Source of the DNA: Bifidobacterium sp.
Lineage (GTDB): Bacteria > Actinomycetota > Actinomycetes > Actinomycetales > Bifidobacteriaceae
Reading direction: 5' to 3'
NCBI GenBank assembly: GCA_022649135.1
Contig: JALCNP010000005.1
Location: 1 to 64,000 of the forward strand
DNA: 64,000 nucleotides
How positions within the stretch are numbered: position 1 is the stretch's first letter; each line of letters begins with the position of its first letter. Below, one piece after another: positions 9,058-26,667 of this stretch. The position numbers were made by a program, and so were the translations under genes. The notes under the pieces are model-generated. The model was not told where the DNA came from, searched no databases, and saw only the letters and a program-made list of their open reading frames with translations.

Positions 9058-9242
9058 ATGGTGTCCACCTTCCCGTTCCTTCATTCATCGTAGTGGATGA
9101 GCGGGTGCGAATCCCGCGTGACGCGCCTTTTCGGGAATGGCGCCGCCTCGGTCATCGGGGTTTTCGTGACATCGATTGGGGCCGCATGCCCCGAGGTGGG
9201 GGCGTCGATGAAATATCCCGTTCATCCATTCGTTTCGAATAG

Positions 9243-9279
9243 GAAATTTCAAAATCGATTGATTGAAACAAATATTTCA
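9243..9279. promoter_or_regulatory. candidate RpiR operators upstream of the allantoin permease
   Basis: Two symmetrical elements occur in the 352-bp divergent gap between the RpiR gene and the permease. GAAATTTC (9243-9250) is a perfect 8-bp palindrome. TGAAA (9264-9268) faces TTTCA (9275-9279) across 6 bp. GAAA/TTTC half-sites are common in RpiR operators, and a related A/T-rich palindrome recurs at 11850-11865. The rest of the gap (9058-9242 and 9280-9409) shows no other gene. Confidence 0.5.
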
Positions 9280-9409
9280 GACCATGGTCACGTCGTTGAC
9301 CAAGATGCCCCGGCACGGCGCACCGACATCCTTCCCGCCCCGTCTCCGCGGCCGCGTGGAAGCGGAAAATCGGGCCGTCCGGCTTCATCCCACACAAGGA
9401 GAGCGCATT

Positions 9410-11005
9410 ATGACCTCAATCACGGCGGAGGAAGAAATCGACCGGACCCGACCGCAGAAGGAACCGCCGCAGAGCGACGGCCGGGCCGACGAGGTCGTCA
9501 TCAAGGAGGGATACGATCCCCGTCTTGCCAACAAGGATCTGGCACCACTCAGAAAGCAGACATGGTCGTGGTACAACATCTTCGCCTTCTGGATGTCGGA
9601 CGTGCACTCCGTCGGGGGGTATGTCACGGCAGGCAGCCTCTTCGCCCTGGGAATCGCCAGCTGGCAGGTTCTTGTGGCGCTTTTGGTGGGAATCGTCATC
9701 GTCCAGGTTTTCGTCAATCTCATCGCCAAGCCCAGCCAGAGAATGGGGGTCCCATTCCCCGTCACGACCCGATTCGTCTTCGGTGTGAAGGGAGCCAACA
9801 TCCCGGCTGTCATACGGGGCATCATCGCCGTCGCCTGGTACGGCGTGCAGACCTTCCTCGCCTCGGAATCCCTGAATGTCATATTCCTGAAATTCATCCC
9901 CTCGTCCCGCGTGCTGGCCACGGACTACTCGTTCCTGGGACTCTCCGCATTGGGGTGGATCTCCTACGGGGTCCTCTGGATCGCCCAGGCATGCGTGTTC
10001 TGGCGGGGAATGGACACCATCCGGACCTTCATCGATTGGGCCGGTCCCGCAGTGTACGCGGTGATGTTCGTGCTTGCCGTCTATCTGGTGGTCCAGGCCG
10101 GAGGCCTCGGCCACATCAACCTCACCCTTTCCTCCGGCGCCCCGCTGGGATTCGTCCGATCGATTCCCGTCATGATCACGGCGGTCGCCCTCGTCGTGTC
10201 GTATTTCGCGGGGCCCATGCTGAACTTCGGCGACTTCTCGAGATACGCCCATACCTATTCGAATGTGAGGAAGGGGAACTTCTGGGGTCTGCCGGTGAAT
10301 TTCCTCGTGTTCTCCCTGCTGACGGTCGTGTGCGCATCGGCGACGGTTCCGGTGTTCGGCAAGCTCATCACCGACCCCATCGCGACGGTGGAGAGGATCG
10401 GGGCGCCGTTCGCGATTCTTCTGGGCGGACTGACCTTCGTCGTCGCAACCGTCGGCATCAACATCGTTGCGAATTTCGTGTCACCCGCATTCGATTTCTC
10501 CCACGTCAATCCCAGAAAGATCAGCTGGCGCACGGGCGGCATGATCGCCGCGGTCGGTTCGGTGGTCATCACTCCCTGGAATTGGTATTCCAACGATCAG
10601 GCGATCCACTACACGCTCGATCTTCTCGGCTCCCTCATCGGCCCCCTGTTCGGCATTCTGATAGCGGGCTACTTCGTGGTGGCACGGCAAAGGGTGAAGG
10701 TCGACGACATCTTCACCATGGACCCCCATGGATTGTATTGGTATCGCAACGGATTCAACCCCAATGCCGTGGCCTCCCTGGTGGTGGCCGGGGTGTTCTC
10801 CGTCGCCAGCGTGATCCTGCCGTCCCCCCTGAAGCAGCTGGGCATGCCGGATATGACGTGGATATCGAATTTCAGCTGGTTTCTGGGTGCGGCGATCGGA
10901 TACGTGGCGTTCGTCTTCCTGGAAAGGCGACATCCGAGGATGCCGCATCTGGAGGCCGGGCAGGCTGGGGTCAGCGATGGCGCCGCCGACGAGGGCGTGC
11001 TGTAA
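9410..11005 (+). CDS. NCS1-family allantoin/hydantoin/nucleobase permease
   Basis: A 531-residue cation symporter of the NCS1 (Mhp1/PucI) family with about twelve membrane segments. Family blocks include WSWYNIFAFWMSDVHSVGGY near helix 1, RFVFGVKGANIPAVIRGI, AWYGVQTFLASESLNVIF, and MLNFGDFSRYAHTYSNV around helix 8. The start at 9410 has AAGGAG 8 nt upstream; the open frame further upstream is not supported. As the first gene of a plus-strand allantoin cluster it most likely imports allantoin. Hydantoin or a nucleobase remains possible because NCS1 specificity cannot be read from these motifs. Confidence 0.9.
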   Translation: MTSITAEEEIDRTRPQKEPPQSDGRADEVVIKEGYDPRLANKDLAPLRKQTWSWYNIFAFWMSDVHSVGGYVTAGSLFALGIASWQVLVALLVGIVIVQVFVNLIAKPSQRMGVPFPVTTRFVFGVKGANIPAVIRGIIAVAWYGVQTFLASESLNVIFLKFIPSSRVLATDYSFLGLSALGWISYGVLWIAQACVFWRGMDTIRTFIDWAGPAVYAVMFVLAVYLVVQAGGLGHINLTLSSGAPLGFVRSIPVMITAVALVVSYFAGPMLNFGDFSRYAHTYSNVRKGNFWGLPVNFLVFSLLTVVCASATVPVFGKLITDPIATVERIGAPFAILLGGLTFVVATVGINIVANFVSPAFDFSHVNPRKISWRTGGMIAAVGSVVITPWNWYSNDQAIHYTLDLLGSLIGPLFGILIAGYFVVARQRVKVDDIFTMDPHGLYWYRNGFNPNAVASLVVAGVFSVASVILPSPLKQLGMPDMTWISNFSWFLGAAIGYVAFVFLERRHPRMPHLEAGQAGVSDGAADEGVL

Positions 11006-11093: not shown

Positions 11094-11855
11094 ATGCGCA
11101 TGATGGTTATCAACCCCAACACCACGATGTCGATGACTGATTCGATCGGCCGTGCCGCCCGTGCGGCCGTCGGCCCGGATGTTCGTGTGGAGGCGGTGAG
11201 TCCCGGCATGGGTCCTGTCTCCATCGAAGGGCATTACGACGAGGTGCTGGCATCCGTCGGGGTGGTCGACGAGGTCCGGCGGGGCGAGGCTTGTGGTGTG
11301 GACGCTTTTGTGATCGCCTGTTTCGGGGACCCGGGGTTGCAGGCCGCCCGTGAGCTGGCGTCGGGGCCGGTGGTCGGCGTTGCCGAGGCTGCTTTTCGCG
11401 CCGCCGGTTTCGCCGGACGGTCCTTCGCGATAGTCACGACGCTCGGCAGAACGCTGGGCCGGGCCCGCGACCTTGTTGCGGAGTATGGCTGTGAACGTCA
11501 GTGCGTGGCATACCGCGCCTGCGAGGTGCCGGTTCTCGGACTGGAGGACGATGAAGGGGACGCGTATATGGCGCTGGAGGCGGAATGCGACGACGTGCTC
11601 CGCTCGACGGACGCGGATGCCATTGTGCTGGGGTGCGCGGGGATGGCCAAGCTGTGCGGGCGTCTGGCGGATCATCTTGCCGTTCCCGTCATCGATGGCG
11701 TGGCGGCCGGGGCGGCTTTCGCCGAGGGGCTTGTGCGCATCGGTATGCATACGGGTAAGCGGCGTGAGTTCGCCAGACCCATCGCCAAGCCGGTTCGCGG
11801 TCTCCTGTCCGGTTTCTCCCTGGAGGAACTTCCCGGGGGAAGGCGAAGAAATTGA
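11094..11855 (+). CDS. allantoin/hydantoin racemase (HpxA/HyuA-type)
   Basis: A 253-residue Asp/Glu/hydantoin-racemase family enzyme. It has two catalytic Cys in the expected symmetrical positions: ACFGDPG in the first half and VLGCAGM in the second. The N-terminus (MVINPNTT) and the RSFAIVTTLGRT strand are typical of the HyuA/HpxA group. It would interconvert (R)- and (S)-allantoin so that allantoinase can use both. A GGGAGAG ribosome-binding site lies about 12 nt upstream. The neighbouring allantoinase and allantoate amidohydrolase favour allantoin over other hydantoins. Confidence 0.9.
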   Translation: MRMMVINPNTTMSMTDSIGRAARAAVGPDVRVEAVSPGMGPVSIEGHYDEVLASVGVVDEVRRGEACGVDAFVIACFGDPGLQAARELASGPVVGVAEAAFRAAGFAGRSFAIVTTLGRTLGRARDLVAEYGCERQCVAYRACEVPVLGLEDDEGDAYMALEAECDDVLRSTDADAIVLGCAGMAKLCGRLADHLAVPVIDGVAAGAAFAEGLVRIGMHTGKRREFARPIAKPVRGLLSGFSLEELPGGRRRN

Positions 11856-11865: not shown

Positions 11866-11976
11866 CAGAAACTTTTGGATAATAAATTTCAGTATATCCG
11901 ACGTCCGACCGAGGCGTGAACAACACGCGACCCGGCCGCAGGCGCCACCACGACAATGCGGATGGAGAAAACGCAG

Positions 11977-13290
11977 ATGGAGAAACCACGGATGGCAGCA
12001 ATGACAGTCGGCGGCGCACGGCATGACGGCAGTGCGATCGAACCGCTTAATCCCCCCCACCGTCTGCTGATGGCACCCGGGCCGGTCAACGTCGACCCGC
12101 GGGTGCTTTCGGCCATGGCCAAACCGACCGTCGGCCAGTTCGATCCTTATATGTTCACGGTTATGGAAGACGTGCAGCGCATGTTCCGCATCATCTTCAA
12201 GACGGGCAATGAGCAGACGATGGTGGTGGACGGAACGTCCCGATCGGCGATCGAGGCCGCGCTGGTCTCCGTCCTCGCTCCGGAGGACGACGTCCTCGTG
12301 TGCTGCGCCGGCCGTTTCGGGCTCCTGCTCAAGGAGATCGCCGAACGATGCGGCGCGCGGGTGCATGTGATTACGAAACCGTGGGGGGAGGTTTTCACGC
12401 CTGAAGAGATCGAGACGGCCATAAGGCGCACGCGCCCCGCGCTCGTGGCCACGGTGCATGGGGACACGTCCACCACGATGCTTCAGCCCCTTGAAGGTCT
12501 CGGCGAGATGTGCCACCGTTATGGGGCCCTTCTCTACACCGATGCGACGGCCTCCCTGGTGGGCAACGATCTGAGAACGGACGAATGGGGCGTCGACATC
12601 GTGAGCACGGGCATGCAGAAATGCCTCGGCGGCCCCTCGGGCATGGCGCCGATCACGGTTTCCGACCGCGCCGTGGCGGTAATGGAGCGGCGCAAAAGCA
12701 TAGAGGCCGGTGTGGCTGCCGATGCCCGGGAAATCGGTTCGAAACGCATCCGCAGCAATTACTTCGACCTTCCCCAGATCTTCGACTACTGGGGACCGCG
12801 TCATCTCAACCATCACACCGAAGCGACCCACATGCTCTACGCAGTGCATGAGGCCGCGAGAATCGTCGTTGACGAGGGCGTGGACCGCGCCATCGAGCGC
12901 CATCGTCTCAACGGCTGCGCCATGGCCGCCGCCCTGAGCGCCATGGGACTGGAGCTGTTCGGCAACCAGCGCAACCGCATGAACGATGTGATCGGGGTCG
13001 TGATACCTCAGGGGGTTCAGGATTCCCGGATACGGGCGGATCTGCTGGAAGACTTCTCCGTCGAGATAGCCTCGTCCTTCGGGCCCCTGCAGGGCAGGAT
13101 ATGGCGTATCGGGGTCATGGGCTGCAACGCCCGCAAGGACGCCGTGCTCACCACCGCGGCCGCACTGGGGACGGTGCTGGGGCGCAGCGGCGTGCAGGTG
13201 CACACCGAGGATGGGATCCGCGCCGCCCTTGACGTGTATGCAAGTCAGGGTCAACCCTCCGCCGAGATGAACGGGAGGGACGCGCGATGA
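11977..13290 (+). CDS. pucG: (S)-ureidoglycine-glyoxylate aminotransferase (PucG-type)
   Basis: A class V PLP-dependent aminotransferase of about 437 residues. The N-terminal block MAPGPVNVDPRVLSAM, the PLP-contact HGDTSTTMLQPL and the Schiff-base Lys215 in STGMQKCLGGPSG match the PucG/AGT family. PucG transfers the amino group of (S)-ureidoglycine to glyoxylate, giving oxalurate and glycine. No ureidoglycine aminohydrolase (AllE) gene is visible, which fits this route. The start is ambiguous because ATGGAGAAA is repeated; I use 11977 (GGAG 9 nt upstream), with 11956 and 11992 as alternatives. The stop overlaps the next gene as ATGA. Confidence 0.88.
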   Translation: MEKPRMAAMTVGGARHDGSAIEPLNPPHRLLMAPGPVNVDPRVLSAMAKPTVGQFDPYMFTVMEDVQRMFRIIFKTGNEQTMVVDGTSRSAIEAALVSVLAPEDDVLVCCAGRFGLLLKEIAERCGARVHVITKPWGEVFTPEEIETAIRRTRPALVATVHGDTSTTMLQPLEGLGEMCHRYGALLYTDATASLVGNDLRTDEWGVDIVSTGMQKCLGGPSGMAPITVSDRAVAVMERRKSIEAGVAADAREIGSKRIRSNYFDLPQIFDYWGPRHLNHHTEATHMLYAVHEAARIVVDEGVDRAIERHRLNGCAMAAALSAMGLELFGNQRNRMNDVIGVVIPQGVQDSRIRADLLEDFSVEIASSFGPLQGRIWRIGVMGCNARKDAVLTTAAALGTVLGRSGVQVHTEDGIRAALDVYASQGQPSAEMNGRDAR

Positions 13291-14621
13291 GCGGCGTGCG
13301 GGAGACCGGGCCGCAGGACTGGGCGGTCCGCGCGGCCGCGGAGATCATGGATCGCTGTGACAGGCTCGCCGGCATCAGCGATATGGAATCGGGGATCGAA
13401 CGGACCTACCTGTCCCCCCGGATGGCCGACGCGTACGAGCTTGCCGGCGGATGGATGCGAGAGGCGGGGCTGGACGTCCATGTCGATCCGGCGGGCAATC
13501 TCGTCGGACGGGTGGAGGGAAGCCGGCCGGGCCTGCCCGCACTGGTCCTCGGATCCCATCTCGACACGGTTCCCGACGCCGGGAGATACGACGGGATCCT
13601 CGGCGTCGTGACCTCGATCCATGTCGTCTCCCATCTCATCGACTCCTCGATCACCGCGCGGCTGCCCTTCGCGATAGAGGTCGTGGCCTTCGGGGACGAG
13701 GAAGGTGCGCGCTTCGGCGCGACCCTTCTCGGGTCCTCGGGCTTCGCAGGCTGCTGGAACCCCGGCTGGATGGATCTTCGGGACCGTGACGGGGTCAGCA
13801 TGCGCCAGGCGTTCCATGATTTCGGCCTTGACCCGGATCGCGTCGAGGACGCCGCACGCACTCGCGATCAGGTCATGGGCTACCTGGAGCTGCATATCGA
13901 GCAGGGGCCGATACTGGAGCAGCGCGACAGGGCTCTGTCCTCGGTGAGCTCCATCGCGGCCGCCGCCCGCTACATGATCGAGGTTCGTGGCGAATCCAGA
14001 CATATCGCCACCCCCTATGACCTGCGCGAGGATGCGCTGACCGCCGCCGCGCAGATGATCGTGGCCGTTGATTCGATCAGCCGCGTCGCCGGAACGCGCG
14101 CGAACGTGGGTGAGATAGCGGCGGAGCCGGGCGGGGTGAATGTCATTGCGGGGAAGACCGTGTTCAGCCTCGACGTGCGTGCCGGGACCAATGCGCAGCG
14201 GGATGCGGTGTTCGACCGGATCTGGGAGGCGTTCGACGACATCTGCACCCAACGGTCGGTGACCGTGACGAAGAGGCGTATTCATCAGGCGGATGCCGTG
14301 CGGTGCGACGATTTTCTCCGCGGGTGCATCGACAGCGGGATCGAGGGCGCGGAGAGGAAACCGGCCTTCGGTCTCATCAGTTTCCCGGGCCATGACGGGA
14401 TGGCCGTGGCCCATGCGCTTCCCATAGCAATGCTGTACGTTCGCTGCGCAAACGGCATCAGTCACAGTCCCCTCGAATCCGTAAGACAGGACGATGTCGC
14501 CTATGGGGCCGATGCCTTCGCACGCGCCGTCGTCGCCGTGGCGGATCGACTGGGGGCCGTCGGCGATCTCGCACACGCCGCGACCGGGCTGTCCGCGGAT
14601 CCGCTCGGCACATCGGCCTGA
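13287..14621 (+). CDS. allC: allantoate amidohydrolase (M20 family)
   Basis: A 444-residue metal-dependent amidohydrolase that would convert allantoate to ureidoglycine, ammonia and CO2. M20/AllC motifs are intact: GSHLDTVPDAGRYDG, FGDEEGARFG, ELHIEQGP, GHDGMAVAHA and NGISHSPLE. The usual lid-domain block (of the form GxxxHAGTTPM) is altered to GESRHIATPYD; its His is kept but the AGTTPM part is not. This may change substrate preference. The ATGA overlap with the aminotransferase indicates coupled translation. N-carbamoyl-amino-acid hydrolase is the main alternative, but the context favours allantoate. Confidence 0.87.
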   Translation: MSGVRETGPQDWAVRAAAEIMDRCDRLAGISDMESGIERTYLSPRMADAYELAGGWMREAGLDVHVDPAGNLVGRVEGSRPGLPALVLGSHLDTVPDAGRYDGILGVVTSIHVVSHLIDSSITARLPFAIEVVAFGDEEGARFGATLLGSSGFAGCWNPGWMDLRDRDGVSMRQAFHDFGLDPDRVEDAARTRDQVMGYLELHIEQGPILEQRDRALSSVSSIAAAARYMIEVRGESRHIATPYDLREDALTAAAQMIVAVDSISRVAGTRANVGEIAAEPGGVNVIAGKTVFSLDVRAGTNAQRDAVFDRIWEAFDDICTQRSVTVTKRRIHQADAVRCDDFLRGCIDSGIEGAERKPAFGLISFPGHDGMAVAHALPIAMLYVRCANGISHSPLESVRQDDVAYGADAFARAVVAVADRLGAVGDLAHAATGLSADPLGTSA

Positions 14622-14698: not shown

Positions 14699-16084
14699 GT
14701 GGAAACGATAATCAGTCAACAAAGCACCGGTGCGCGCGTCGATCGTGAGCCCGCGGACGATCTGGTCATTCGGGGCAGGGCCTTCGTCGGCGGAGCCTTC
14801 GTCGACGCGGCCGTCGGGATCCGCGGCGAACGGATCGGCGCCGTACTCGCGGACCCGGGTGCGGAGGTTCATGCCGGCACAGAGATCAGACTGCGCCCCG
14901 ATGAGGTCCTGATCCCGGGCATCGTGGACACGCATGTGCACATCAACGAGCCGGGGCGCACCGAATGGGAAGGCTTCGATCATGCCACAAGGGCGGCGGC
15001 CGCAGGCGGTGTGACGACGGTGATCGACATGCCGCTGAACAGCAATCCCCCTACGCTGAGCGTCGATGCCCTGGATCTCAAGCGCCATGCCGCCGCCACA
15101 CAGACGTATACGCAGCTGGGCTTCTGGGGAGGCGTCGATGCCACCAACCTCGGGGGGCTCGAGGAACTCTGGCGGGCCGGGGTGTTCGGATTCAAATGCT
15201 TTCTCTCGCCCAGCGGCGTCGATGAGTACGGCTCCCTGAGCTATGCCGGCCTTGAGAGGGCCATGCGCGAGATCGCCGGTTTCGGCGGCCTGCTCATCAT
15301 CCACGCCGAGGACCCCGGCGAGCTGGCGGCCGTGCGTCGCCCCATCGGACGAACCTACCGCAGCTTCGCCGATTCACGACCCGCCGTCAGCGAGGCCAGG
15401 GCGGTCGAACGGGTGATGGACCTCGTGCGTGAGACCGGGTGCCGCACGCACATCCTCCACGTGTCGAGTGCGCGCAGCGTGCGCGCCATAGCGCGGGCGA
15501 AGGAGGAGCGGCTGCCCGTGAGCGCCGAGACCTGCCCGCATTATCTCACGCTGGATTGCGACCACATCCCCGATGGCGACACCTCGTACAAATGCTGCCC
15601 CCCGATACGAGACGTGCATGAGCAGGACGCCCTGTGGCAGGGCCTTGCCGACGGCACTCTGGACATCGTCGTCACGGACCATTCCCCGACCACGGCAGCC
15701 ATGAAGTCGGGAACGCTCGCAACCGCGTGGGGAGGCGTTTCGAGCCTGCAGGTAGGTTTCAGGGCCGTGCTCACCCAGGCACGGCGACGTGGATTCGGGC
15801 TTGCCGACGTTCTTGGATGGATGAGCGTGAACACGTCCCGTTTCGCGGGTCTCGAGGACAGGGGAGGCATTGAGGTCGGGAAGCGGGCCGACCTGGCGGT
15901 AATCGCACCCGACGCCTCTTTCGTTGTGGATGCCGCGCGGCTGGAAAGCCGCAACCCGATAAGCGCTTTCGACGGCATGACCGTCAACGGGGTGATACGA
16001 CGTACGCTTGTCGGCGGAGCCGAGCCGCACGCCGATGCGGGGAATCTGATAGTCAGACCCTGGCGTGCCGTCTCGACGTCATGA
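14699..16084 (+). CDS. allB: allantoinase
   Basis: A 461-residue cyclic amidohydrolase that opens the allantoin ring to allantoate. Two-metal-site residues are visible: HVHINEPG (His79 and His81), the carboxylated-Lys motif GFKCFLSPSGVDEYG (Lys166), IIHAEDP, ILHVSSA and the catalytic VVTDHSP. The length suits the AllB family (about 450). Translation starts at GTG with GAAAGG 8 nt upstream. Dihydropyrimidinase and hydantoinase are relatives, but PSGVDEYG-type motifs and the gene context support allantoinase. Confidence 0.9.
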   Translation: METIISQQSTGARVDREPADDLVIRGRAFVGGAFVDAAVGIRGERIGAVLADPGAEVHAGTEIRLRPDEVLIPGIVDTHVHINEPGRTEWEGFDHATRAAAAGGVTTVIDMPLNSNPPTLSVDALDLKRHAAATQTYTQLGFWGGVDATNLGGLEELWRAGVFGFKCFLSPSGVDEYGSLSYAGLERAMREIAGFGGLLIIHAEDPGELAAVRRPIGRTYRSFADSRPAVSEARAVERVMDLVRETGCRTHILHVSSARSVRAIARAKEERLPVSAETCPHYLTLDCDHIPDGDTSYKCCPPIRDVHEQDALWQGLADGTLDIVVTDHSPTTAAMKSGTLATAWGGVSSLQVGFRAVLTQARRRGFGLADVLGWMSVNTSRFAGLEDRGGIEVGKRADLAVIAPDASFVVDAARLESRNPISAFDGMTVNGVIRRTLVGGAEPHADAGNLIVRPWRAVSTS

Positions 16085-16242
16085 TGCGCCAGGCCGTACT
16101 GTAGTGGATATCGACTGCGACCAAGGGCTGCGGCGAGAGCGGGTGCGCTCCGCAGGCGCGCCTGCGAAGGCCATCCGGCCGCCCGGACGTCTGGATGCAC
16201 TGTGGGCGTGGGCCACAGGAGAGTGGACGGAGGAAAGGTCTT

Positions 16243-18948
16243 ATGATGACTGATGTGCTGCAACCCTTGACGGACCCGCATGATGCCGGGGCCGTCTATG
16301 TCTCCTCCACACCGGAGCACGTTCTGTGGGGCAGGCTTCCCTGCCGCGAGGACGCGTGCGTCGCGTGCGCCGCGGCAGGGGAGGACATCGTCGTGGATAC
16401 GGTAAGCCACGAGGGCCTTCTGCCCGATCAGGGCGGCGACCCGATGGCGTATTTCACGGCCCGTGGTGTGAGACCCGATCAGGTGCTCACGGATGCCGTG
16501 GATATCGCCGCCCGTTGCCATCGTGATGAGCGGGAGGACGGGCCGCATGTGGTGACGGGTCCCGTTCGCATCGAGGGTGCACATCCCGGCGACCTGCTCG
16601 CCGTCAGCATCAGGCGGTTGGAGAGGCGCGTGCCGTATGGGGTGGTCTCCACCAGGCACGACCGTGGAGTGCTTGCCGGTGACGAACGCTACGATGCGGA
16701 TTATGGCCAGTTCTGCTGGGCTCGCGGAGACAGGGCGGTCTTCGCCTCGCCGGAAGACGGGGAAGTCGTGGATTCTTCCGGGCGCAGCGATGGCGACCCG
16801 TGGAAGACCGGGCATTCCGGCGCCCCGTCGTTTCCCCTCAACCCGTTTCTCGGCATCGTCGGCGTCATGCCGGACAGCGCTCACAGACCAAGCTCGATAC
16901 CCCCCGCCGCCTATGGCGGGAACATCGATCTGCGGGAGTTGACGGAGAATTCGACGTTGTTCATTCCCGTGCAGGTCGAAGGCGCCGGACTCTATGTGGG
17001 TGATCCGCATTTCGCCCAGGGCAACGGCGAGGTCGCCCTCACCGCGCTGGAGGCCTCGCTTCGCGCGACGCTCCACGTCGAAGTCATTTCCCGCTCCGAT
17101 CGGTCGAGGGTCCTGGGGATGTCCCCTCTGCCGTTCGCCTATGCCCACCGATGCGTGATTGCGCTGGGGATGGACAGGGACCTCAACCGCGCCTTGCGCG
17201 ACTGCGTCGGGAACGCGGTTCATATGATCCATCGGCTTTTCGGTGTTCCCGAGCGTCAGGCCTATCTTCTTCTTTCCGCGGCCGCCGACTGCGACGTCAC
17301 CCAGGCAGTCGACATCGTCAAGGGTGCCCATGCGATGATCGACGTCGACATGTTTCGCGACTGTCCCGCCTATGGAGCCGCCATGGATTTTCTGCACGAT
17401 TTCGAGGACGGCTCCCTGACGGCGGCGGTGCAGAGGTACGAAACGGCTCTGGTGAGCAACGACGTCGACGCCATGAAGGCCATATTCGCCGACGATCCGG
17501 ACGGGGTGCCCGTGGTGAGGTCAGATAACGAGGGGCCGCTGGTGGGCCACCGGGCGATCGCAGACTTCCGTGCGCGGCGGGGAAAGACTCCGGGCCGGAC
17601 ACTGCGCAGAAGGATCATCCGTACGCTGTCACCGGACGCGGCCTCGGTCGTGTCCCGATTCGATCGGGACTCGGGCGGAACCATCACGCAAACGCAGGTA
17701 TGGCGGCGTTACTCCGGGGTGTGGCATATCGTGGACGCCCATCTCACCTATCCCTCGCCTGCGATGGATTCGCGGATATGGCGTGTTGTGGGCGACCCGC
17801 TTGTTCCACCCTCGAAGCCGGGGCCTCTCGATTCGATGAGCGTGGCCGTGAAGGATCTTTTTGCGATTCACGGTTTTTCGGTCGGGGCGGGGAATCCCGA
17901 TTACCGTCGTGAGTCGCCCGTGCGCGATAGCGATGCGGACGCCGTTCGCATGCTGCGCGATGCCGGGGCCAGCGTCCGCGGCATCGCGCAAACGGATGAG
18001 TTCGCGTATTCCCTCGCGGGAACGAACATCCACTATGGGACTCCGCCGAATCCGCGTGCCCCGGGCAGGATCAGCGGGGGCTCCTCCTCTGGTCCCGCTT
18101 CCGCGGTGGCATGCGGACAGGCGGATATAGGTTTGGGGACCGACACGGCCGGATCGATCAGAATCCCCGCGGCGTATCAGGGGTTGTGGGGAATCCGCAC
18201 CACGCATGACAGGGTTTCGCGAGCCGGGGTGCACCCCCTGTCCTCCAGCTTTGACACGGTGGGCGTGCTGGCACGCACCCACGGGGTGTTGGCGGCGGCG
18301 ACATCGGTTCTCGTCGGGGTCGATGCGGTGTCGGCCATCGAGCCCGTGATGCTGCTCTCACCGGGTCTGTGCGATCATGTCGAGTCGGATGTGTCGGCCG
18401 CGTTCTCGGGGTTCGTGCAGGTCATCCGTTCACGTTCGGCGTATCGGTGGATGAGCATGTCCATCGACGATTCCCTGTTGAATGAGTGGCTCGGCATCTT
18501 CCAGACAGTCCGCGGCTATGAGGCGTGGCGGTTCAACGGCGCATGGGTGGCGTCCCATCGACCTTCCCTGGATCCGGGCATCGCGGCACGTTTCGACCAT
18601 GACTCGCATATCCCCGTCGGCGAATACCGCACGGCCATCGCTCGTCTGTCCCAGGTTCGTGAGGCGGTGCGCGCCGAACTGGGTTCACGCCCCCTTCTGA
18701 TTCCCACGGCTTCCAGCGTGGCACCCCTGAGCGATCCGGGAGAGAAGGCGGCGCAGGCCATTGAACGGGCGCGGCGACAGACGCTGCTGCTGACGAGCCT
18801 CGCAGGGGTGGCGGGTCTGCCGGCGGTGAACATCCCTCTGGTCACAGACCGCAATCTGCCATGCGGGGCGTGCCTCATCGGACCGGCCGGGTCGGACAAC
18901 GCGCTGGTCGCGCTTGCGGGGCGGCTTTCCGACTGTGCGGATGAGTAG
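16243..18948 (+). CDS. three-domain fusion: FmdA/AmdA amidase + AtzH/HpxZ-like + AtzE/HpxY-like amidase
   Basis: A 901-residue protein with three enzyme-family modules. Residues about 1-380 are an acetamidase/formamidase (FmdA_AmdA) domain with SSIPPAAYGGNIDLRELT and VGDPHFAQGNGEVALTALE. Residues about 383-505 are an NTF2/SnoaL-like domain resembling AtzH/HpxZ (DUF3225). Residues about 507-901 are an amidase-signature domain with the full Lys-Ser-Ser triad: Lys537 (VAVKDLF), the GGSSSG loop at 612-617, and nucleophile Ser638 (TAGSIRIPA). HpxZ- and AtzE-like proteins occur in oxalurate catabolism, so this protein probably hydrolyses oxalurate made by PucG; the FmdA part may deamidate a product such as oxamate. 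I start at 16243 (GGAGG 9 nt upstream). No frameshift or stop interrupts the joins, so the fusion is genuine in this sequence. Confidence 0.85.
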   Translation: MMTDVLQPLTDPHDAGAVYVSSTPEHVLWGRLPCREDACVACAAAGEDIVVDTVSHEGLLPDQGGDPMAYFTARGVRPDQVLTDAVDIAARCHRDEREDGPHVVTGPVRIEGAHPGDLLAVSIRRLERRVPYGVVSTRHDRGVLAGDERYDADYGQFCWARGDRAVFASPEDGEVVDSSGRSDGDPWKTGHSGAPSFPLNPFLGIVGVMPDSAHRPSSIPPAAYGGNIDLRELTENSTLFIPVQVEGAGLYVGDPHFAQGNGEVALTALEASLRATLHVEVISRSDRSRVLGMSPLPFAYAHRCVIALGMDRDLNRALRDCVGNAVHMIHRLFGVPERQAYLLLSAAADCDVTQAVDIVKGAHAMIDVDMFRDCPAYGAAMDFLHDFEDGSLTAAVQRYETALVSNDVDAMKAIFADDPDGVPVVRSDNEGPLVGHRAIADFRARRGKTPGRTLRRRIIRTLSPDAASVVSRFDRDSGGTITQTQVWRRYSGVWHIVDAHLTYPSPAMDSRIWRVVGDPLVPPSKPGPLDSMSVAVKDLFAIHGFSVGAGNPDYRRESPVRDSDADAVRMLRDAGASVRGIAQTDEFAYSLAGTNIHYGTPPNPRAPGRISGGSSSGPASAVACGQADIGLGTDTAGSIRIPAAYQGLWGIRTTHDRVSRAGVHPLSSSFDTVGVLARTHGVLAAATSVLVGVDAVSAIEPVMLLSPGLCDHVESDVSAAFSGFVQVIRSRSAYRWMSMSIDDSLLNEWLGIFQTVRGYEAWRFNGAWVASHRPSLDPGIAARFDHDSHIPVGEYRTAIARLSQVREAVRAELGSRPLLIPTASSVAPLSDPGEKAAQAIERARRQTLLLTSLAGVAGLPAVNIPLVTDRNLPCGACLIGPAGSDNALVALAGRLSDCADE

Positions 18949-20579: not shown

Positions 20580-21911
20580 ATGAATCGAAGCACAATGAAG
20601 GTTATGGGCGTCATCGCGGTGGCCGCGCTCTCATTGACTACGTTTGCAGCGTGCGGGTCGAGCGGCTCTTCGTCGGACACCAAGGGCAAGGTGTACTACC
20701 TTAACTTCAAGCCCGAGGTCGCCGATCAGTGGACGGCTCTGGCAAAGCAGTACACCAAGGATACCGGTGTTCCCGTGGACGTGCAGACCGCCGCCTCCGG
20801 AACGTACGAGCAGCAGCTGAAAAGCGAGATGGCGAAAAGCGAGGCCCCGACGCTTTTTCAGGTCAACGGTCCCGTCGGCTATGCCAGCTGGAAGGACTAC
20901 ACGGCCGACATGAAGAACACGAAGGTCTATAAGGATCTGGTCAATCGGAACGTCGCCCTCAAGGACGGAAACAAGGTCGTCGGGGTCCCCTACGTGATGG
21001 AGACCTACGGCATCATATACAACAAGGACATCCTCAAGAAATACACGGAACTCTCCGGAGCCAAGATCACATCGGTTTCCGACATCAAGTCCTTCAAGAC
21101 CCTGAAGGCGGTCGCCGACGACATCCAGGCCCGCAAGGCGGAGCTCGGAATCAAAGGGGCGTTCACCTCTGCGGGTTTCGACTCCAGCTCCGACTGGCGT
21201 TTCAAAACCCATCTGGCGAACCTGCCGCTCTACTACGAGTTCAAGAAGGACGATGTCACCAAGCAGCCGGCAACCGTCAAGGGAACGTATCTCCCCGAGT
21301 TCAAGAACATCTTTGATCTCTACATCAAGGACTCCACCACCAATCCCAAGCAGCTGAGCTCCAAAACCATCGAGGACGCGAACTCCGAGTTCGGCCTGGG
21401 GCAGGCCGCCTTCTACCAGAACGGCACCTGGGCCTGGTCCGATCTGCAGAAGGCGGGCATGAAGGCCGATCAGGTCGGAATGATCCCCATCTACATAGGT
21501 GGTCCGAACGAGGCGAAGGAGGGCCTTGCCACGGGTTCCGAAAACTACTGGTGCATCAACGACAAGGCCTCCGCGGCCGATCAGAAGGCAACGGCGGACT
21601 TCCTCTCCTGGGTCATCACCTCGAGCGCCGGGAAGAAGGCCCTGTCCACCGGCATGGGCTTCACCACCCCCTTCACGACGTTCAGCTCCATCACGTCGGA
21701 CAACCCGCTCACCGAGGCGGCGGTGGCGGACCAGGCCTCGGGGAAGACTGCGGTCAGCTGGAACTTCACCATGATGCCTTCCGAGACATGGAAGAACAAT
21801 CTGGGCAATGCGATGCTTGAATACGCCCAGGGGACCGGTAATTGGGACGCTGTGAAAACCGCCTTCGTGCAGGGTTGGGCGACCGAGTACAAGGCCGCCC
21901 ACCAGGACTGA
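20580..21911 (+). CDS. sugar ABC transporter substrate-binding lipoprotein
   Basis: A 443-residue family 1 extracellular sugar-binding protein (MalE/MsmE type). A lipobox TTFAAC places the lipidated Cys at residue 25, followed by a Gly/Ser linker. The body has typical motifs such as TLFQVNGPVGYASWKDYT, GVPYVMETYGIIYNKDIL and GQAAFYQNGTWAWSDL. The ribosome-binding site is AAAGG, 7 nt before ATG. Two permeases follow. With the GH13 alpha-glucosidase and LacI nearby, the substrate is probably an alpha-glucoside or alpha-glucan oligosaccharide. Confidence 0.92.
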   Translation: MNRSTMKVMGVIAVAALSLTTFAACGSSGSSSDTKGKVYYLNFKPEVADQWTALAKQYTKDTGVPVDVQTAASGTYEQQLKSEMAKSEAPTLFQVNGPVGYASWKDYTADMKNTKVYKDLVNRNVALKDGNKVVGVPYVMETYGIIYNKDILKKYTELSGAKITSVSDIKSFKTLKAVADDIQARKAELGIKGAFTSAGFDSSSDWRFKTHLANLPLYYEFKKDDVTKQPATVKGTYLPEFKNIFDLYIKDSTTNPKQLSSKTIEDANSEFGLGQAAFYQNGTWAWSDLQKAGMKADQVGMIPIYIGGPNEAKEGLATGSENYWCINDKASAADQKATADFLSWVITSSAGKKALSTGMGFTTPFTTFSSITSDNPLTEAAVADQASGKTAVSWNFTMMPSETWKNNLGNAMLEYAQGTGNWDAVKTAFVQGWATEYKAAHQD

Positions 21912-21924
21912 CGGCACGTGGTGC

Positions 21925-21966
21925 GCGGCTTCGCCACGGGGGCGGGAGCCCCCGTGGCGAAGCCGC
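21925..21966 (+). promoter_or_regulatory. perfect 19-bp intercistronic hairpin
   Basis: GCGGCTTCGCCACGGGGGC (21925-21943) pairs with its exact complement at 21948-21966 around a GGGA tetraloop. It starts 13 nt after the binding-protein stop and ends 20 nt before the permease. There is no T tract. Such hairpins stabilise the upstream message and let binding protein exceed permease; that role is inferred. Confidence 0.75.
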
Positions 21967-21992
21967 CATCGCGGTTGTGAAAGGATGTGGTT

Positions 21993-22850
21993 GTGTTGAT
22001 AAACATGGCCGGAAAAACAATACGACGGTGGTGGGCGCTGTTCGCCCTGCCCACGTTCGCCGCCTTCATCATCGGCTTCCTCGGCCCGTTCCTGATGGGG
22101 ATCTACCTCAGCTTCTGCAAATTCACCACGGTCTCCGATGCGACGTTCGTGGGAACGCGCAACTACGTGAACGCATGGAGGGACGCCCAGTTCTGGCATT
22201 CGCTTCTGTTCACCACGGCATTCACCATCGTGACGACCGTCGTGATCAACGTGGTCGGATTCGCCATCGCCTACATGCTGACGAAGGCGATAAAGGGATC
22301 GACCCTGTTCCGTTCCGTCTTCTTCATGCCCAACCTCATCGGGGGCATCATCCTGGGCTATGTGTGGATGCTGCTGTTGAACGGCATTCTGGGGCATTGG
22401 GCCCTGACCATCACCTATTCCGCGGTGTATGGATTCTGGGGGCTGGTGATTCTGGTCTGCTGGCAGCAGATAGGCTACATGATGATCATCTACATAGCCG
22501 GGCTGCAGAGTCTTCCCACGGATGTCCTGGAGGCCGCGGCCGTGGATGGCGCGAATGGCCGGCAGACGCTGATGAGGATCACCATCCCCCTGATGATGCC
22601 CAGCATCACCGTATGCACGTTCCTGACCGTCACCAATGGGTTCAAGCTGTTCGATCAGAACCTTGCGCTGACCAACGGCGCTCCCTCGAACACGTCTGAG
22701 ATGGCCGCGCTCAACATCTACAACACCTTTTACGGGCGAATGGGGTTTGAGGGAGTGGGACAGGCGAAGGCCGTGATCTTCTTCATCATCGTGGCGCTGA
22801 TCGCGCTTATCCAGAACAGGCTCACCACCAGCAGGGAGGTTCAGGCATGA
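21993..22850 (+). CDS. sugar ABC transporter permease (MalF/UgpA-type)
   Basis: A six-helix inner-membrane permease of about 285 residues. The EAA loop that contacts the ATPase reads LEAAAVDGANGRQTLMRITIP, as expected for CUT1-family permeases. An upstream AAAGGA favours the GTG at 21993; GTG 21987 and ATG 22005 are alternatives. No ATPase gene is encoded in the locus, so the transporter probably relies on a shared MsmK-type ATPase elsewhere. The stop overlaps the next permease (ATGA). Confidence 0.92.
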   Translation: MLINMAGKTIRRWWALFALPTFAAFIIGFLGPFLMGIYLSFCKFTTVSDATFVGTRNYVNAWRDAQFWHSLLFTTAFTIVTTVVINVVGFAIAYMLTKAIKGSTLFRSVFFMPNLIGGIILGYVWMLLLNGILGHWALTITYSAVYGFWGLVILVCWQQIGYMMIIYIAGLQSLPTDVLEAAAVDGANGRQTLMRITIPLMMPSITVCTFLTVTNGFKLFDQNLALTNGAPSNTSEMAALNIYNTFYGRMGFEGVGQAKAVIFFIIVALIALIQNRLTTSREVQA

Positions 22851-23686
22851 ACGGCGACACAGTGAAGCATGGGGCGTGGTGGACGGCGTTCTTCGCGGTC
22901 CTCTCCCTGGCGTGGGTGTTCCCCATCGTCCTGGTGCTCATCAACTCCTTCAAAAACAAGGTGTACATCGCCAGTGACGCCTTCTCCCTCCCCACGAGCA
23001 AGACATTCGTCGGATTGGACAACTATAAGCTGGGCATCCAGCGTACGGACCTGATCGCGAGCTTCGGCTGGACGGTTCTCATCACCGTCGGCTCCGTGCT
23101 GCTCATCCTCGTGTGCACCTCCATGTGCGCATGGTGGATCGTGCGCGTGGACAACTGGGCCGCGCGGGCGCTGTACGTGCTTTTCCTCTTCAACATGATC
23201 GTCCCTTTCCAGATGGTGATGTTCACCCTGTCCAAGATCGCCGACACCCTCGGATTCAGCACCCCCTGGGGGCTGTGCATCGTCTATCTGGGCTTCGGGG
23301 CCGGGCTTGCGGTGTTCATCTTCACCGGTGTCGTCAAGGGGATTCCCCGGGAGCTTGAGGAATCCGCCATGATCGACGGGGCCAGCGTACCGCGCATATT
23401 CTTCCAGATAGTGGTGCCGATCATGCGGCCCTCCATCATCTCGGTGGCGATTTTGGAGGCGATGTGGATATGGAACGACTTCCTGCTTCCCTACCTGACG
23501 CTGGACATGCGCAAGTACAAGACCATGTCGATTGCCATCCAGTATCTTAAGGGCGGATATGGCTCCATCGACATGGGGGCCATGATGGGCTGCCTTGTCC
23601 TCGCGATCATCCCGATCATCGCCTTCTACCTCGTATGCCAGAAGTACATCGTCAAAGGCGTCATGGCCGGGGCCGTGAAGGGGTAG
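22847..23686 (+). CDS. sugar ABC transporter permease (MalG/UgpE-type)
   Basis: A 279-residue second permease of the CUT1 pair. The N-terminal FPIVLVLINSFKNK, the EAA loop ELEESAMIDGASVPRIFFQI and the C-terminal YLVCQKYIVKGVMAGAVKG are typical of MalG-type subunits. It is translationally coupled to the first permease by ATGA. A strong GC-rich terminator follows at 23715-23775. Confidence 0.92.
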   Translation: MNGDTVKHGAWWTAFFAVLSLAWVFPIVLVLINSFKNKVYIASDAFSLPTSKTFVGLDNYKLGIQRTDLIASFGWTVLITVGSVLLILVCTSMCAWWIVRVDNWAARALYVLFLFNMIVPFQMVMFTLSKIADTLGFSTPWGLCIVYLGFGAGLAVFIFTGVVKGIPRELEESAMIDGASVPRIFFQIVVPIMRPSIISVAILEAMWIWNDFLLPYLTLDMRKYKTMSIAIQYLKGGYGSIDMGAMMGCLVLAIIPIIAFYLVCQKYIVKGVMAGAVKG

Positions 23687-23714
23687 GGCCTTGTGTCGGC
23701 ACGGCCTCCCCGTC

Positions 23715-23775
23715 GGCGGGCGCGCCCGAACCCGGATCGCGATGCGGTTCCGGGCGCGGGCGCGCCCGCCGTTTT
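23715..23775 (+). terminator. terminator of the sugar ABC operon
   Basis: GGCGGGCGCGCC (23715-23726) pairs with GGCGCGCCCGCC (23759-23770), with a further pairing-capable GGTTC/GAACC type region in the loop, and GTTTTC follows. This is the classical intrinsic form and ends the transporter operon before the convergent YesL-like gene. Confidence 0.85.
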
Positions 23776-23866
23776 CCTGTGATGCCCATGACGGGATTGT
23801 CCATGATGATGTGTCCTGCTGCGGACGATCGCGTTCGTCCCCTGCCGCGCGAGTACCGGCGGAGGG

Positions 23867-24493
23867 TCAGCTGCCGCTTTCCCGGTGTCCATCCGGGTGG
23901 ACATAGGGGGCGAAGACGTGCTCCAGAATCGGCGTGTGCACGCCGATAAGGGAGCCGTAGCCGAGAACGGCGAGAGGGAACAGCGCCTGCGGGGCGTAGA
24001 CGAAGCAGACCGAGAGCAGGGCTAGGGCCGCGGCGTCTATGGCCATGAGCAGGACGGTCCACCCGATGTGGGCGAATCCGATGATGAATGCGTTGCGCAA
24101 GGTGGTTCCCACAGGGTTCTCGAACCGTGCCTGCATGGCGAAAACCCATTCGAATCCGATGAGCCACAGCAGCGTCAGGCCGATTACAGGGGCAAGCAGC
24201 AAAGGGGTTCTGACCGCGATCCACCCATAGATCAGCGCGGCCGCGCCGATGGCGAACGGGATCCACAGGATGCAGGCCTTGGCGCAATTCGACCGAAATG
24301 CCGTGCAATAGTTGCGAACGACATGGCCTTCAGATTCGGCCAGCCGACGTGATGCGTCATGGGCCGCCGCCAGCGCCGCCCCGATGGTCACCACCGGCAG
24401 GCTGCATACGGCGAGCATGGCATTGATCGTTATGGTGTCAACGACTTTCGATAGCCCCTGCATGAAGGTGGAATCGGGAGAGAGCCAGCTCAT
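23867..24493 (-). CDS. YesL-like (DUF624) membrane protein
   Basis: A 208-residue protein with about five membrane segments. The early block TITINAMLAVCSLPVVTIGAAL and the following AHDASRRLAESEGHVVRNY match the YesL/DUF624 family, which is common beside sugar ABC transporters and glycosidases in Firmicutes and bifidobacteria. Its biochemical role is unknown. It lies downstream of the GH13 gene on the minus strand, after a 170-bp gap holding a G-rich repeat, and probably belongs to the same regulon. Confidence 0.85.
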   Translation of the reverse strand: MSWLSPDSTFMQGLSKVVDTITINAMLAVCSLPVVTIGAALAAAHDASRRLAESEGHVVRNYCTAFRSNCAKACILWIPFAIGAAALIYGWIAVRTPLLLAPVIGLTLLWLIGFEWVFAMQARFENPVGTTLRNAFIIGFAHIGWTVLLMAIDAAALALLSVCFVYAPQALFPLAVLGYGSLIGVHTPILEHVFAPYVHPDGHRESGS

Positions 24494-24560
24494 GATGCTC
24501 CTTTTCTCGTGGTGTCCCTGTTATGCACCGTGGCGGTGGGTATGCGTGGTGGTGGGTATG

Positions 24561-24630
24561 GGACGGTGAGGTGGGTGTGGACGTGTGGTGGATACGGACG
24601 GTGAGGTGGGCATGAACGGTGTGGTGGATA
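24561..24630. repeat. G/T-rich tandem repeat, two copies of about 34 bp
   Basis: Two adjacent units begin GGACGGTGAGGTGGG and end GTGTGGTGGATA, at 24561-24594 and 24596-24630. Looser GGTGGG units extend left to about 24530. Together they fill most of the 171-bp gap between the glucosidase and YesL-like genes. In the transcribed sense the tract is C/A-rich and probably unstructured. No coding sense is apparent. Confidence 0.65.
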
Positions 24631-24664
24631 TCGACGTGGAAGGAGCGTGGCGGAGGCCCGATCG

Positions 24665-26428
24665 TCACACGTCCGTGAGCATCCACACGGTCGTGTCCTG
24701 CGGTATGGAGTCGCCGAGCGGATCCGCGCTCGCGAGCACAACCGTTCCGTGAGGCAACGGCACCGGCTCCGATCCGAAATTCGTGATGCTGACGAATCTT
24801 CGGTCTTTGCGAGTGGTCATTCGCGAGTAGGCGATGGTGCTCCGATCGTCGAAGGATTCGGTCGTAAGCAGGGTGAGACCCGTGTCGCGGGTTGCCGTCA
24901 GCAGGGTCTGGCGCAGTGAGAGGGCCTTGCGATACAGCTGAAGCATGGATGTCGGATCGTTGTCTTCGCGGTCCACGGCGAAATGCCGAAACCACAAGGG
25001 CTGCGGAAGATGCGGTTCGCAGGCGGGAGACCCCGCCCTCTCCTGTGGGGAGAAGCCGAAGGATGCGCCTTCGCCGAATTTCGGGTTCCATGCGGCCGGC
25101 CGGGGCTCGTCGTCGGCCCTCCACGGCAGCGGTACCCGACATCCGTCCCTTCCCTTCACGCAGAAGGGGCCACGGGAGTTGCGCGACTGGGGGTCCTCCA
25201 GACGATCCCACGGAAGGTCGGCGACCTCGAACAATCCCAGCTCCTCGCCCTGATAGACGTAGACCGATCCGGGCAGGCCCGCCTCCAGCATGATGGCGGC
25301 CCTTGCCCTGCGCGTTCCCCGATCCCGATCCTCGATATAGCTTTCTCCGTTGCGCAGCAGCCAGTCATTAGCGATCTGGTGGTATCCGCGGGTCCTGACC
25401 TGAGGCAGGGCGTACCTGCTCGCATGGCGGGGGACGTCGTGGTTGCTCATCACCCACGTCGTGGTGGAACCGGCTTCCCTCGCGCAGTCAAGGCCCTTGA
25501 CGATGGCCGTGCGCAGCTCCTGCGGACACCAGTTCGCTTTGGCGAATTCGAAGTTGAACACCTGCCCAAGCTCCTTCTCGGAGGCGTAAAGATGCTGATG
25601 CTCCGGAGCGACCCACGCCTCGGCGATCGCAAAGCGCGGTGGATCGTATTCGTCGAACACCCGCCGCCATTCGCGGTAGATGTCGTGCACCTCCGGTCTG
25701 TCCCACAGAGGATGGTCGCCGTCGGCGGTGGGCTGTGCCTGGGAGGGCCAGCGTCCCAGTTCCTCAAGGCTGCGGCTGCTCAGATCCTTCGCCAGACCGT
25801 GCGCCACATCCACCCGGAACCCATCGGTGCCATGGTCCGACCAGAAACGCAGCGTCCTGATGAAATCCTCATGGACATCGGGGTTCTTCCAGTTCAGATC
25901 GGGTTGCTGCCTGGCGAACAGATGCAGGTACCACTGCCCGTCGTCGACCCGCTGCCAGGCGCTTCCGCCGAACATCGAGAGCCAGTCGTTGGGCGGGATC
26001 TCGCCGTCGCAGCCGCGTCCCTCGCGGAAGATGTATCGTTCTCTCTGAGCCGATCCGGGGGCGGCTCCGAGCGCCTCCTGGAACCATGGGTGCCTGTCGG
26101 ACGTGTGGTTGGGGACGATGTCCACCACGACTTTGAGTCCCTGCGAATGCGCTGCGGCGACCATGGCGTCGAAATCGTCCATCGTTCCCAGCCTCGGATC
26201 GACGTCGCGGTAGTCGATCACATCGTATCCGCCGTCGGCCAGCTCGGACGGATAGAAGGGGGAAAGCCATATCGCGTCGACGCCGAGGTCGCGCAGGTAG
26301 CCCATCCTGCTGGTTATGCCGGCGATGTCGCCCAGGCCGTCGCCGTCCGAATCCTTGAAGCTGCGAGGGTAGATCTGGTATACGACCGCTTGCTTCCACC
26401 AGTCTTTATGGGTGTTGTTGGATGTCAT
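24665..26428 (-). CDS. GH13 alpha-glucosidase / oligo-1,6-glucosidase
   Basis: A 587-residue cytoplasmic alpha-amylase-family glycosidase. The catalytic triad is readable: nucleophile Asp207 (GFRVDVAHG), acid/base Glu270 (AIAEAWV) and Asp331 (SNHDV). VYQIYPRSFKDSDGDGLGDI and VVDIVPNHTSD are classical GH13 blocks, and the calcium-site motif SDGDGLGD is complete. It would hydrolyse alpha-glucosides brought in by the neighbouring ABC transporter. The start at 26428 has AAAGGAC 5 nt upstream; the long upstream frame is not conserved. Exact linkage preference (alpha-1,4 or alpha-1,6) cannot be fixed here. Confidence 0.92.
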   Translation of the reverse strand: MTSNNTHKDWWKQAVVYQIYPRSFKDSDGDGLGDIAGITSRMGYLRDLGVDAIWLSPFYPSELADGGYDVIDYRDVDPRLGTMDDFDAMVAAAHSQGLKVVVDIVPNHTSDRHPWFQEALGAAPGSAQRERYIFREGRGCDGEIPPNDWLSMFGGSAWQRVDDGQWYLHLFARQQPDLNWKNPDVHEDFIRTLRFWSDHGTDGFRVDVAHGLAKDLSSRSLEELGRWPSQAQPTADGDHPLWDRPEVHDIYREWRRVFDEYDPPRFAIAEAWVAPEHQHLYASEKELGQVFNFEFAKANWCPQELRTAIVKGLDCAREAGSTTTWVMSNHDVPRHASRYALPQVRTRGYHQIANDWLLRNGESYIEDRDRGTRRARAAIMLEAGLPGSVYVYQGEELGLFEVADLPWDRLEDPQSRNSRGPFCVKGRDGCRVPLPWRADDEPRPAAWNPKFGEGASFGFSPQERAGSPACEPHLPQPLWFRHFAVDREDNDPTSMLQLYRKALSLRQTLLTATRDTGLTLLTTESFDDRSTIAYSRMTTRKDRRFVSITNFGSEPVPLPHGTVVLASADPLGDSIPQDTTVWMLTDV

Positions 26429-26559
26429 GGCGTGTCCTTTCGTGTCGAACCGCACCGTCGGGGACCTCGGTGTTCCCGATCTGCGGACGGATGGTTGTAC
26501 GGGGAAGTGCATATGGTGTGCGCGGGCGCGTGAACGGCCGCGCATGGGGGCGGGGGTCG

Positions 26560-26603
26560 GATCCGCGTCGGCCTGACGGGTCCGCTGCGGGCCGACGCGG
26601 ATC
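26560..26603 (-). terminator. 14-bp hairpin between lacI and the glucosidase gene
   Basis: GATCCGCGTCGGCC (26560-26573) pairs perfectly with GGCCGACGCGGATC (26590-26603). It lies 65 nt after the lacI stop on the minus strand, in a 239-bp gap that must also contain the glucosidase promoter. No T tract follows, so termination may be partial. Confidence 0.6.
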
Positions 26604-26667
26604 GGGTGCGGGCGTGTGGCGGGCTGGTGTCCGACGAATCTCTGACGACAAGGGGCGGGATGGGGAA

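Follow-up and report, generated by a model that had tools for sequence, protein, structure and literature searches.

A three-domain amidase fusion in the last gene of a bifidobacterial allantoin operon, and the two-gene module that it joins

Frame, start and operon of the fusion gene

Why should an amidase of the formamidase/acetamidase (FmdA/AmdA) type be joined in one polypeptide to an AtzH-like domain and an amidase-signature domain, and what might such a chain do as the last product of an allantoin operon? The gene lies in the window, by which we mean the whole 64,000-nucleotide stretch of Bifidobacterium sp. DNA that was analyzed, and an earlier note on this DNA had described it as one unbroken 901-residue frame at the end of an allantoin pathway. 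Translation of 16243-18948 on the plus strand bears out the frame, giving 901 residues with a single terminal stop. The longest mechanical ORF opens upstream at 16195 (917 aa); the first residue of the relatives of the fusion is aligned with Met2, which places the start at 16243 or 16246. The start codon lies directly 3' of GGAGGAAAGG. A scan for promoters and terminators at the locus gave no signal exceeding shuffles.

8203-9084, minus strand: RpiR-family regulator, divergent from the operon (Pfam)
9263-11005, plus strand: NCS1-type permease, allantoin-permease-like (Pfam, NCBIfam)
11094-11855, plus strand: member of the Asp/Glu/hydantoin racemase family, probable allantoin racemase (Pfam)
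11956-13290, plus strand: ureidoglycine-glyoxylate aminotransferase-like protein (class V), expected maker of oxalurate (solved matches 3NNK, 3ISL)
13287-14621, plus strand: M20-family allantoate amidohydrolase-like protein, expected producer of ureidoglycine (TIGR01879)
14699-16084, plus strand: allantoinase (TIGR03178, 480.7 bits, above the cut-off of 357.85)
16243-18948, plus strand: triple-fusion gene (residues about 1-371 FmdA_AmdA, about 386-505 AtzH-like, about 506-901 amidase-signature)
16243-17355, plus strand: FmdA_AmdA domain, residues 1-371, proposed oxamate amidohydrolase
17398-17757, plus strand: AtzH-like (HpxZ-like, NTF2) domain, residues 386-505, proposed to decarboxylate N-carboxyoxamate
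17758-18945, plus strand: amidase-signature domain, PRK08310/AtzE-like, residues 506-901, proposed to deaminate oxalurate

The fusion gene ends a same-strand row of permease, racemase, aminotransferase, M20 amidohydrolase and allantoinase, with a gap of 158 bases between the allantoinase and the fusion. In the expected pathway, allantoin is converted through allantoate to ureidoglycine, and an aminotransferase then moves the amino group to glyoxylate, leaving oxalurate. The top solved match of the neighboring aminotransferase is 3NNK, a ureidoglycine-glyoxylate aminotransferase (503 bits), and the next is PucG, 3ISL (419 bits). Since this best match is to an oxalurate-forming enzyme, oxalurate is the expected substrate of the fusion, and the placement at the end of an allantoin pathway holds. 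The M20 amidohydrolase scores 317.7 with the hydantoinase/carbamoylase model TIGR01879, above its cut-off of 204, and 472.1 with the best allantoate model, below its cut-off of 479.

Downstream of the fusion there are a DUF4235 ORF on the opposite strand and a histidine-phosphatase gene (Pfam), and Pfam found no AtzG/GatC-like small-subunit family either within the operon or among the next ORFs beyond it. A related RpiR gene lies within the same 20-kb stretch in 11/11 other operons of the family Bifidobacteriaceae. Farther along the window, positions 20580-27819 hold genes for a solute-binding protein and for two membrane proteins of the ABC type on the plus strand; the minus strand carries a DUF624 ORF, an enzyme of the alpha-amylase family and a LacI regulator.

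Domains and active-site residues

The three domains proposed earlier for the chain were all recovered by Pfam, each above a gathering cut-off of 27: FmdA_AmdA (PF03069, 99.8 bits, in two stretches with the best at residues 218-369), AtzH-like (PF11533, 67.4 bits, residues 392-502) and Amidase (PF01425, 176.2 bits, residues 525-696), the last accompanied by a Lys-Ser-Ser triad. PF01019 (G_glu_transpept) is absent from the Pfam families of the protein. Curated NCBIfam cut-offs were reached by none of the best 25 of the 28 models matched, including formamidase FmdA (NF045496, 70.7 bits against an equivalog cut-off of 500), HpxZ (NF033625, 62.8 against an equivalog cut-off of 135), AtzE/HpxY (TIGR02715, 174.9 against 425.75) and the PRK08310 amidase (NF006169, 347.7 against 391), which is the top model of all. 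Four relatives of the fusion score 361.8-381.5 with this last model, and a Caballeronia amidase encoded beside hpxZ scores 526.1. The C-terminal part is a member of the amidase family, as had been stated, but its nearest type is PRK08310 rather than AtzE/HpxY proper.

Solved relatives were found with phmmer for each part: the acetamidases 2f4l and 3b9t, the AtzH structure 6bjt, and the amidases 2dc0 and 6c62. We used AlphaFold2 (five models, run on 62 aligned proteins from the window and the loci) to model the fusion; the mean pLDDT of 91.7 reflects high confidence across the three domains, and the pTM of 0.68 is modest, the mutual arrangement of the domains not being fixed by the model. The modelled amidase part superimposes on 2dc0 (Z 47.9, rmsd 2.4 over 384) and 6c62 (Z 46.5, rmsd 2.2 over 382), and the modelled FmdA part on 3b9t (chain 3b9t_A; Z 40.8, rmsd 2.1 over 327). 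Membership in the AtzH family rests on sequence, because the fold-search rows mainly cover the amidase part.

The intact amidase triad with Lys537 and Ser638 that had been read from the sequence is now Lys537-Ser614-Ser638, and each of its residues is invariant in 63/63 aligned AtzH-amidase rows; these are 63 of 90 amidase rows, the other 27 having been set aside for want of an AtzH part or for a doubtful start. For the middle domain, three MAFFT alignments of the same 63 rows with the Caballeronia HpxZ and three solved relatives equate Y399 with AtzH Tyr22 (62/63), R426 with Arg46 (62/63) and R452 with Arg73 (63/63), the odd row in each case being a gap. All three place Arg46 opposite Arg426 and supersede a pairwise HMMER alignment that had put it at P423, three residues off. 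Tyr22 and Arg46 of AtzH are reported to be necessary for catalysis, and Arg73 is the position mutated in the ligand-bound structure (PMC6219798). In the FmdA part, H56, E57, H102, R138, H139, D229, D254, H256, Q259, E263 and E270 are invariant in 78/78 rows.

A candidate route from oxalurate to oxalate

We lean, with some reserve, toward a trifunctional enzyme that would complete allantoin catabolism. The amidase domain would release ammonia from the terminal amide of oxalurate to give N-carboxyoxamate, the AtzH domain would decarboxylate N-carboxyoxamate to oxamate, and the FmdA domain would hydrolyze oxamate to oxalate and ammonia, replacing HpxW. The fusion would set the three activities at 1:1:1, with the first step at the C-terminal end of the chain and the last at the N-terminal end. 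We infer all three reactions, the oxamate step of the FmdA domain most of all, and likewise their succession within one polypeptide.

The first two steps transfer to oxalurate the reactions of AtzE, which deaminates 1-carboxybiuret, and of AtzH, which likely decarboxylates the product (PMC6219798); so transferred, they would yield N-carboxyoxamate and then oxamate. The AtzG-AtzE-AtzH system of cyanuric acid degradation in Pseudomonas ADP resembles the fusion in this deamination followed by decarboxylation, in the AtzH residues kept and in the amidase match to 6c62, but the fusion has no AtzG-like gene nearby, carries AtzH ahead of the amidase, has FmdA added and belongs to an allantoin operon. 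The HpxWXYZ system of Klebsiella likewise has an HpxZ-like and an amidase-signature protein after allantoate, with the same expected substrate, but its genes are separate and it uses HpxW for oxamate, in place of which the fusion has an FmdA-type domain. HpxW hydrolyzes oxamate in Klebsiella (Hicks and Ealick 2016, cited in PMC5270733). An FmdA-family amidase would be a natural candidate for this hydrolysis. The FmdA part of the fusion shares the Pfam domain and the fold (3b9t) with the formamidase-acetamidase family, but the fusion falls well under the formamidase equivalog cut-off, is fused, and has an allantoin context.

HpxW is a member of Pfam PF01019, and no match to this family was found in the genome of the window (G000, 95.7% complete), which speaks against an HpxW elsewhere in it. 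Counting against a general replacement of HpxW, seven of 21 genomes searched have PF01019 genes, and six of these are FmdA carriers (G111, G018, G213, G388, G312 and G189); in G111, the B. subtile genome with the triple fusion, the match is split over two frames. Oxalyl-CoA decarboxylase scored above its cut-off in two of 21 genomes searched (G041 and G065) and gave no match over the cut-off in the genome of the window, so that use of oxalate by this route was rejected there; oxalate would be a dead end and be excreted, which weighs against the proposed route. The proposal of the earlier note that oxalurate is converted in sequence to ammonia, CO2 and a small acid agrees with the domains, the kept residues and the allantoin operon; the small acid is here proposed to be oxalate, and the order of the steps is reversed on the chain.

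Several other explanations can be weighed against a trifunctional enzyme. As its family name would have it, the FmdA domain might simply be a formamidase or acetamidase whose substrate is some unrelated amide, and a stop codon lost between co-transcribed genes would then be all that joined it to its neighbor; FmdA is absent from 5/12 allantoin operons of the family, and the 4-base overlaps described below would ease accidental joins. We consider this unlikely, given the score of 70.7 bits against the formamidase cut-off of 500, its recurrence beside the same amidase (in a single case, L147, in reversed order) and the 11 polar FmdA residues invariant in all rows. It is rather unlikely, too, that only the amidase acts on oxalurate while the AtzH domain has a chiefly structural role, as an internal substitute for an AtzG/GatC-like subunit. 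AtzE works as AtzEG (PMC6219798), and no gene for such a subunit lies beside the fusion, there being the 158-base gap upstream and none by Pfam downstream; however, a relic need not keep Tyr22, Arg46 and Arg73, which are retained in 62, 62 and 63 of the 63 rows. Two operons (G129 and G130) that keep the amidase without AtzH cut both ways, since they also indicate that AtzH is not strictly needed.

A third reading, in which the FmdA domain cleaves oxalurate (to oxalate and urea) or N-carboxyoxamate, and the chain has two alternative rather than successive activities, seems improbable to us. The substrates are alike, and locus L159 has FmdA and allantoin genes with no amidase match in 21 kb; on the other hand, the amidase is kept in 12/12 aminotransferase operons of the family while FmdA is variable, and urea would require a further enzyme. 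Finally, an assembly or frameshift artefact at the joins, a possibility raised by the earlier note, can be dismissed almost entirely, since the full-length fusion recurs, at 62% identity, in B. tibiigranuli and B. subtile, and the structure model is of high confidence across the three domains. The triple-fusion protein is real and conserved, and it is probably functional.

The fusion and the two-gene module in other genomes

The search for the same architecture in other genomes, which had been suggested with the original reading, shows the triple fusion to be rare: it occurs in 3/189 Bifidobacteriaceae genomes (the species of the window, B. tibiigranuli G115 and B. subtile G111), with one match spanning the whole query. 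Two further candidates, G086 (an "open frame" of 1408) and G054 (945), were rejected because in both an in-frame stop separates FmdA from the AtzH-amidase. The aminotransferase is present at 1e-60 or better in 12/189 genomes, and in all 12 the amidase lies in the same cluster, with AtzH in 10 and FmdA in seven of these operons. By layout, three have the triple fusion, four have FmdA beside an AtzH-amidase (G086, G018, G054 and G030), three have the AtzH-amidase without FmdA (G065, G083 and G114), and two have the amidase alone (G129 and G130). The AtzH counts are restricted to these 12 operons because an apparent lack of AtzH is unsafe for diverged copies, such as those of L089 and L097, which have space for AtzH and an AtzH-like start.

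It is as if the pathway had been trimmed from its end. The 12/10/7 order would fit an amidase that acts first, an AtzH domain that speeds a decarboxylation also able to run by itself, and an FmdA enzyme that is last and optional. In nine more genomes of the family the amidase occurs with no aminotransferase at 1e-60, so the amidase family is not bound to oxalurate alone. Outside the allantoin operon, G083 has a second, remoter FmdA match (45%) with one internal TAG at 38631-39812 of contig C9.

The amidase-only gene that ends the allantoin operon of G129 (L043) opens with 22 residues (9046-9111, plus strand) that resemble the N terminus of the B. tibiigranuli fusion. Among nine N termini compared with 8 references, this start scored 50 against the B. 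tibiigranuli fusion (reached in 0/500 shuffles), 42 against L041 (2/500) and just 28 against the window's own fusion (29/500), and the sister amidase of G130 gave no FmdA-like N-terminal match. The start is possibly a relic of a deleted FmdA-AtzH part, and the simplest reading would be a deletion that began in FmdA, ended in the amidase and kept the frame, in an ancestor that was either fused or two-gene.

The three fusions form one group in the FmdA tree (75/83, unstarred). The amidase tree places them in a clade of 9 that also holds AtzH-less amidases from two other genera (98/95, with a long-branch warning), and the amidases of G129 and G130 fall in the clade with the fusions (98/95, under the same warning); a tree with the three fusions held together is not rejected (p-AU 0.238). 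Quick trees gave 88 and 95. In the Caballeronia record, hpxZ (185.0 bits, cut-off 135) overlaps the PRK08310 amidase (526.1 bits, cut-off 391) as a separate gene, which suggests a series from separate genes to an AtzH-amidase fusion to the triple fusion, the direction of which we infer. On that Caballeronia plasmid (L171, 6769-9565, plus strand), a DUF1116 gene, hpxZ and the PRK08310 amidase stand in a row behind xanthine-dehydrogenase-family genes.

Seen beyond the family, the gene of the window is the fused version of a module of two genes that is widespread, FmdA followed by an AtzH-amidase. In 59 of the 96 loci compared, which were picked, not randomly, by matches to the fusion protein, the FmdA gene adjoins the amidase gene (58 with FmdA first, one with the amidase first). 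The remainder comprise two fused loci, eight with both genes non-adjacent, two with the genes on opposite strands, 18 with the amidase only, six with FmdA only and one with neither, all at a 200-bit limit; L146 and L154, counted as FmdA only, have an adjacent amidase match below 200 bits. The loci taken included 20 regions of order-level matches and 64 named loci; the 96 are 104 minus 8 same-organism repeats or near-identical loci, with several Nocardia carnea strains kept and L052-L080 (29) set aside. The two genes overlap by 4 bases in 26/59 adjacent loci, an approximate count since start codons were chosen by rule. The module has the same domains as the fusion, in the same order in 58/59 adjacent loci, but as two polypeptides, and the AtzH part is missing at some two-gene loci. 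Modestobacter (L147, 9953-12549, plus strand) has the reversed order, AtzH-amidase then FmdA, also with a 4-base overlap.

In a draw of 396 genomes from the order, 118 had matches to the fusion at 1e-30 or better; among the matches listed, the window's own alone spans FmdA and amidase jointly, and many genomes have separate FmdA and amidase matches side by side. A phylum-wide draw of 396 genomes gave 17 matches at 1e-40. Two Rhodococcus plasmid records match over 97% of the query, and in the one examined an FmdA gene and an amidase gene overlap. In some part of its length, the fusion protein is also matched by 731 Klebsiella plasmid records.

That the combination is undescribed, as had been claimed, accords with a search of open-licence papers on AtzH/AtzE, oxalurate, oxamate, HpxW/HpxZ and ureidoglycine topics, which found no account of the fusion or of the two-gene module. 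Its uniqueness does not stand, since FmdA beside an AtzH-amidase is common in Actinomycetes; what is special is the final join. We hold it about evenly balanced whether the module-linked FmdA proteins supply the oxamate amidohydrolase that has been missing in Actinomycetes, as a replacement unrelated to HpxW that became part of one trifunctional chain, with its sites reversed, in a few bifidobacteria. Fusion and recurrent gene coupling together link an FmdA-family enzyme to oxalurate breakdown and point to a previously unassigned enzyme for the last nitrogen-releasing step of allantoin breakdown, so that FmdA becomes a gene to be tested directly for oxamate hydrolysis where HpxW is absent. They also suggest that many Actinomycetes proteins labelled acetamidase/formamidase do other things, and they sketch a path from overlapping genes to a fused gene and perhaps to loss of the added domains.

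The aminotransferase lies in the same stretch in 37 of the 58 FmdA-first pairs and is found in none of the stretches of the other 21. FmdA and AtzH-amidase genes are grouped, by eye, with ABC-transporter-like genes rather than with allantoin genes at L040 (7750-13258, minus strand), L042 (8578-14140, minus strand) and L110 (9929-16926, plus strand), and at L081 and Nocardia L112 they lie around or before genes resembling, again by eye, those for a binding protein, a permease and an ATPase. By Pfam, L112 and L120 each have a GntR regulator and L135 has a permease; neighbor clustering by longest ORFs, which looked to be mostly antisense noise in these GC-rich genomes, was used just to choose proteins for Pfam. 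No aminotransferase was found in the stretches of these seven loci, so the module may serve imported compounds too. At L110, an amidohydrolase-like ORF is visible downstream (by eye).
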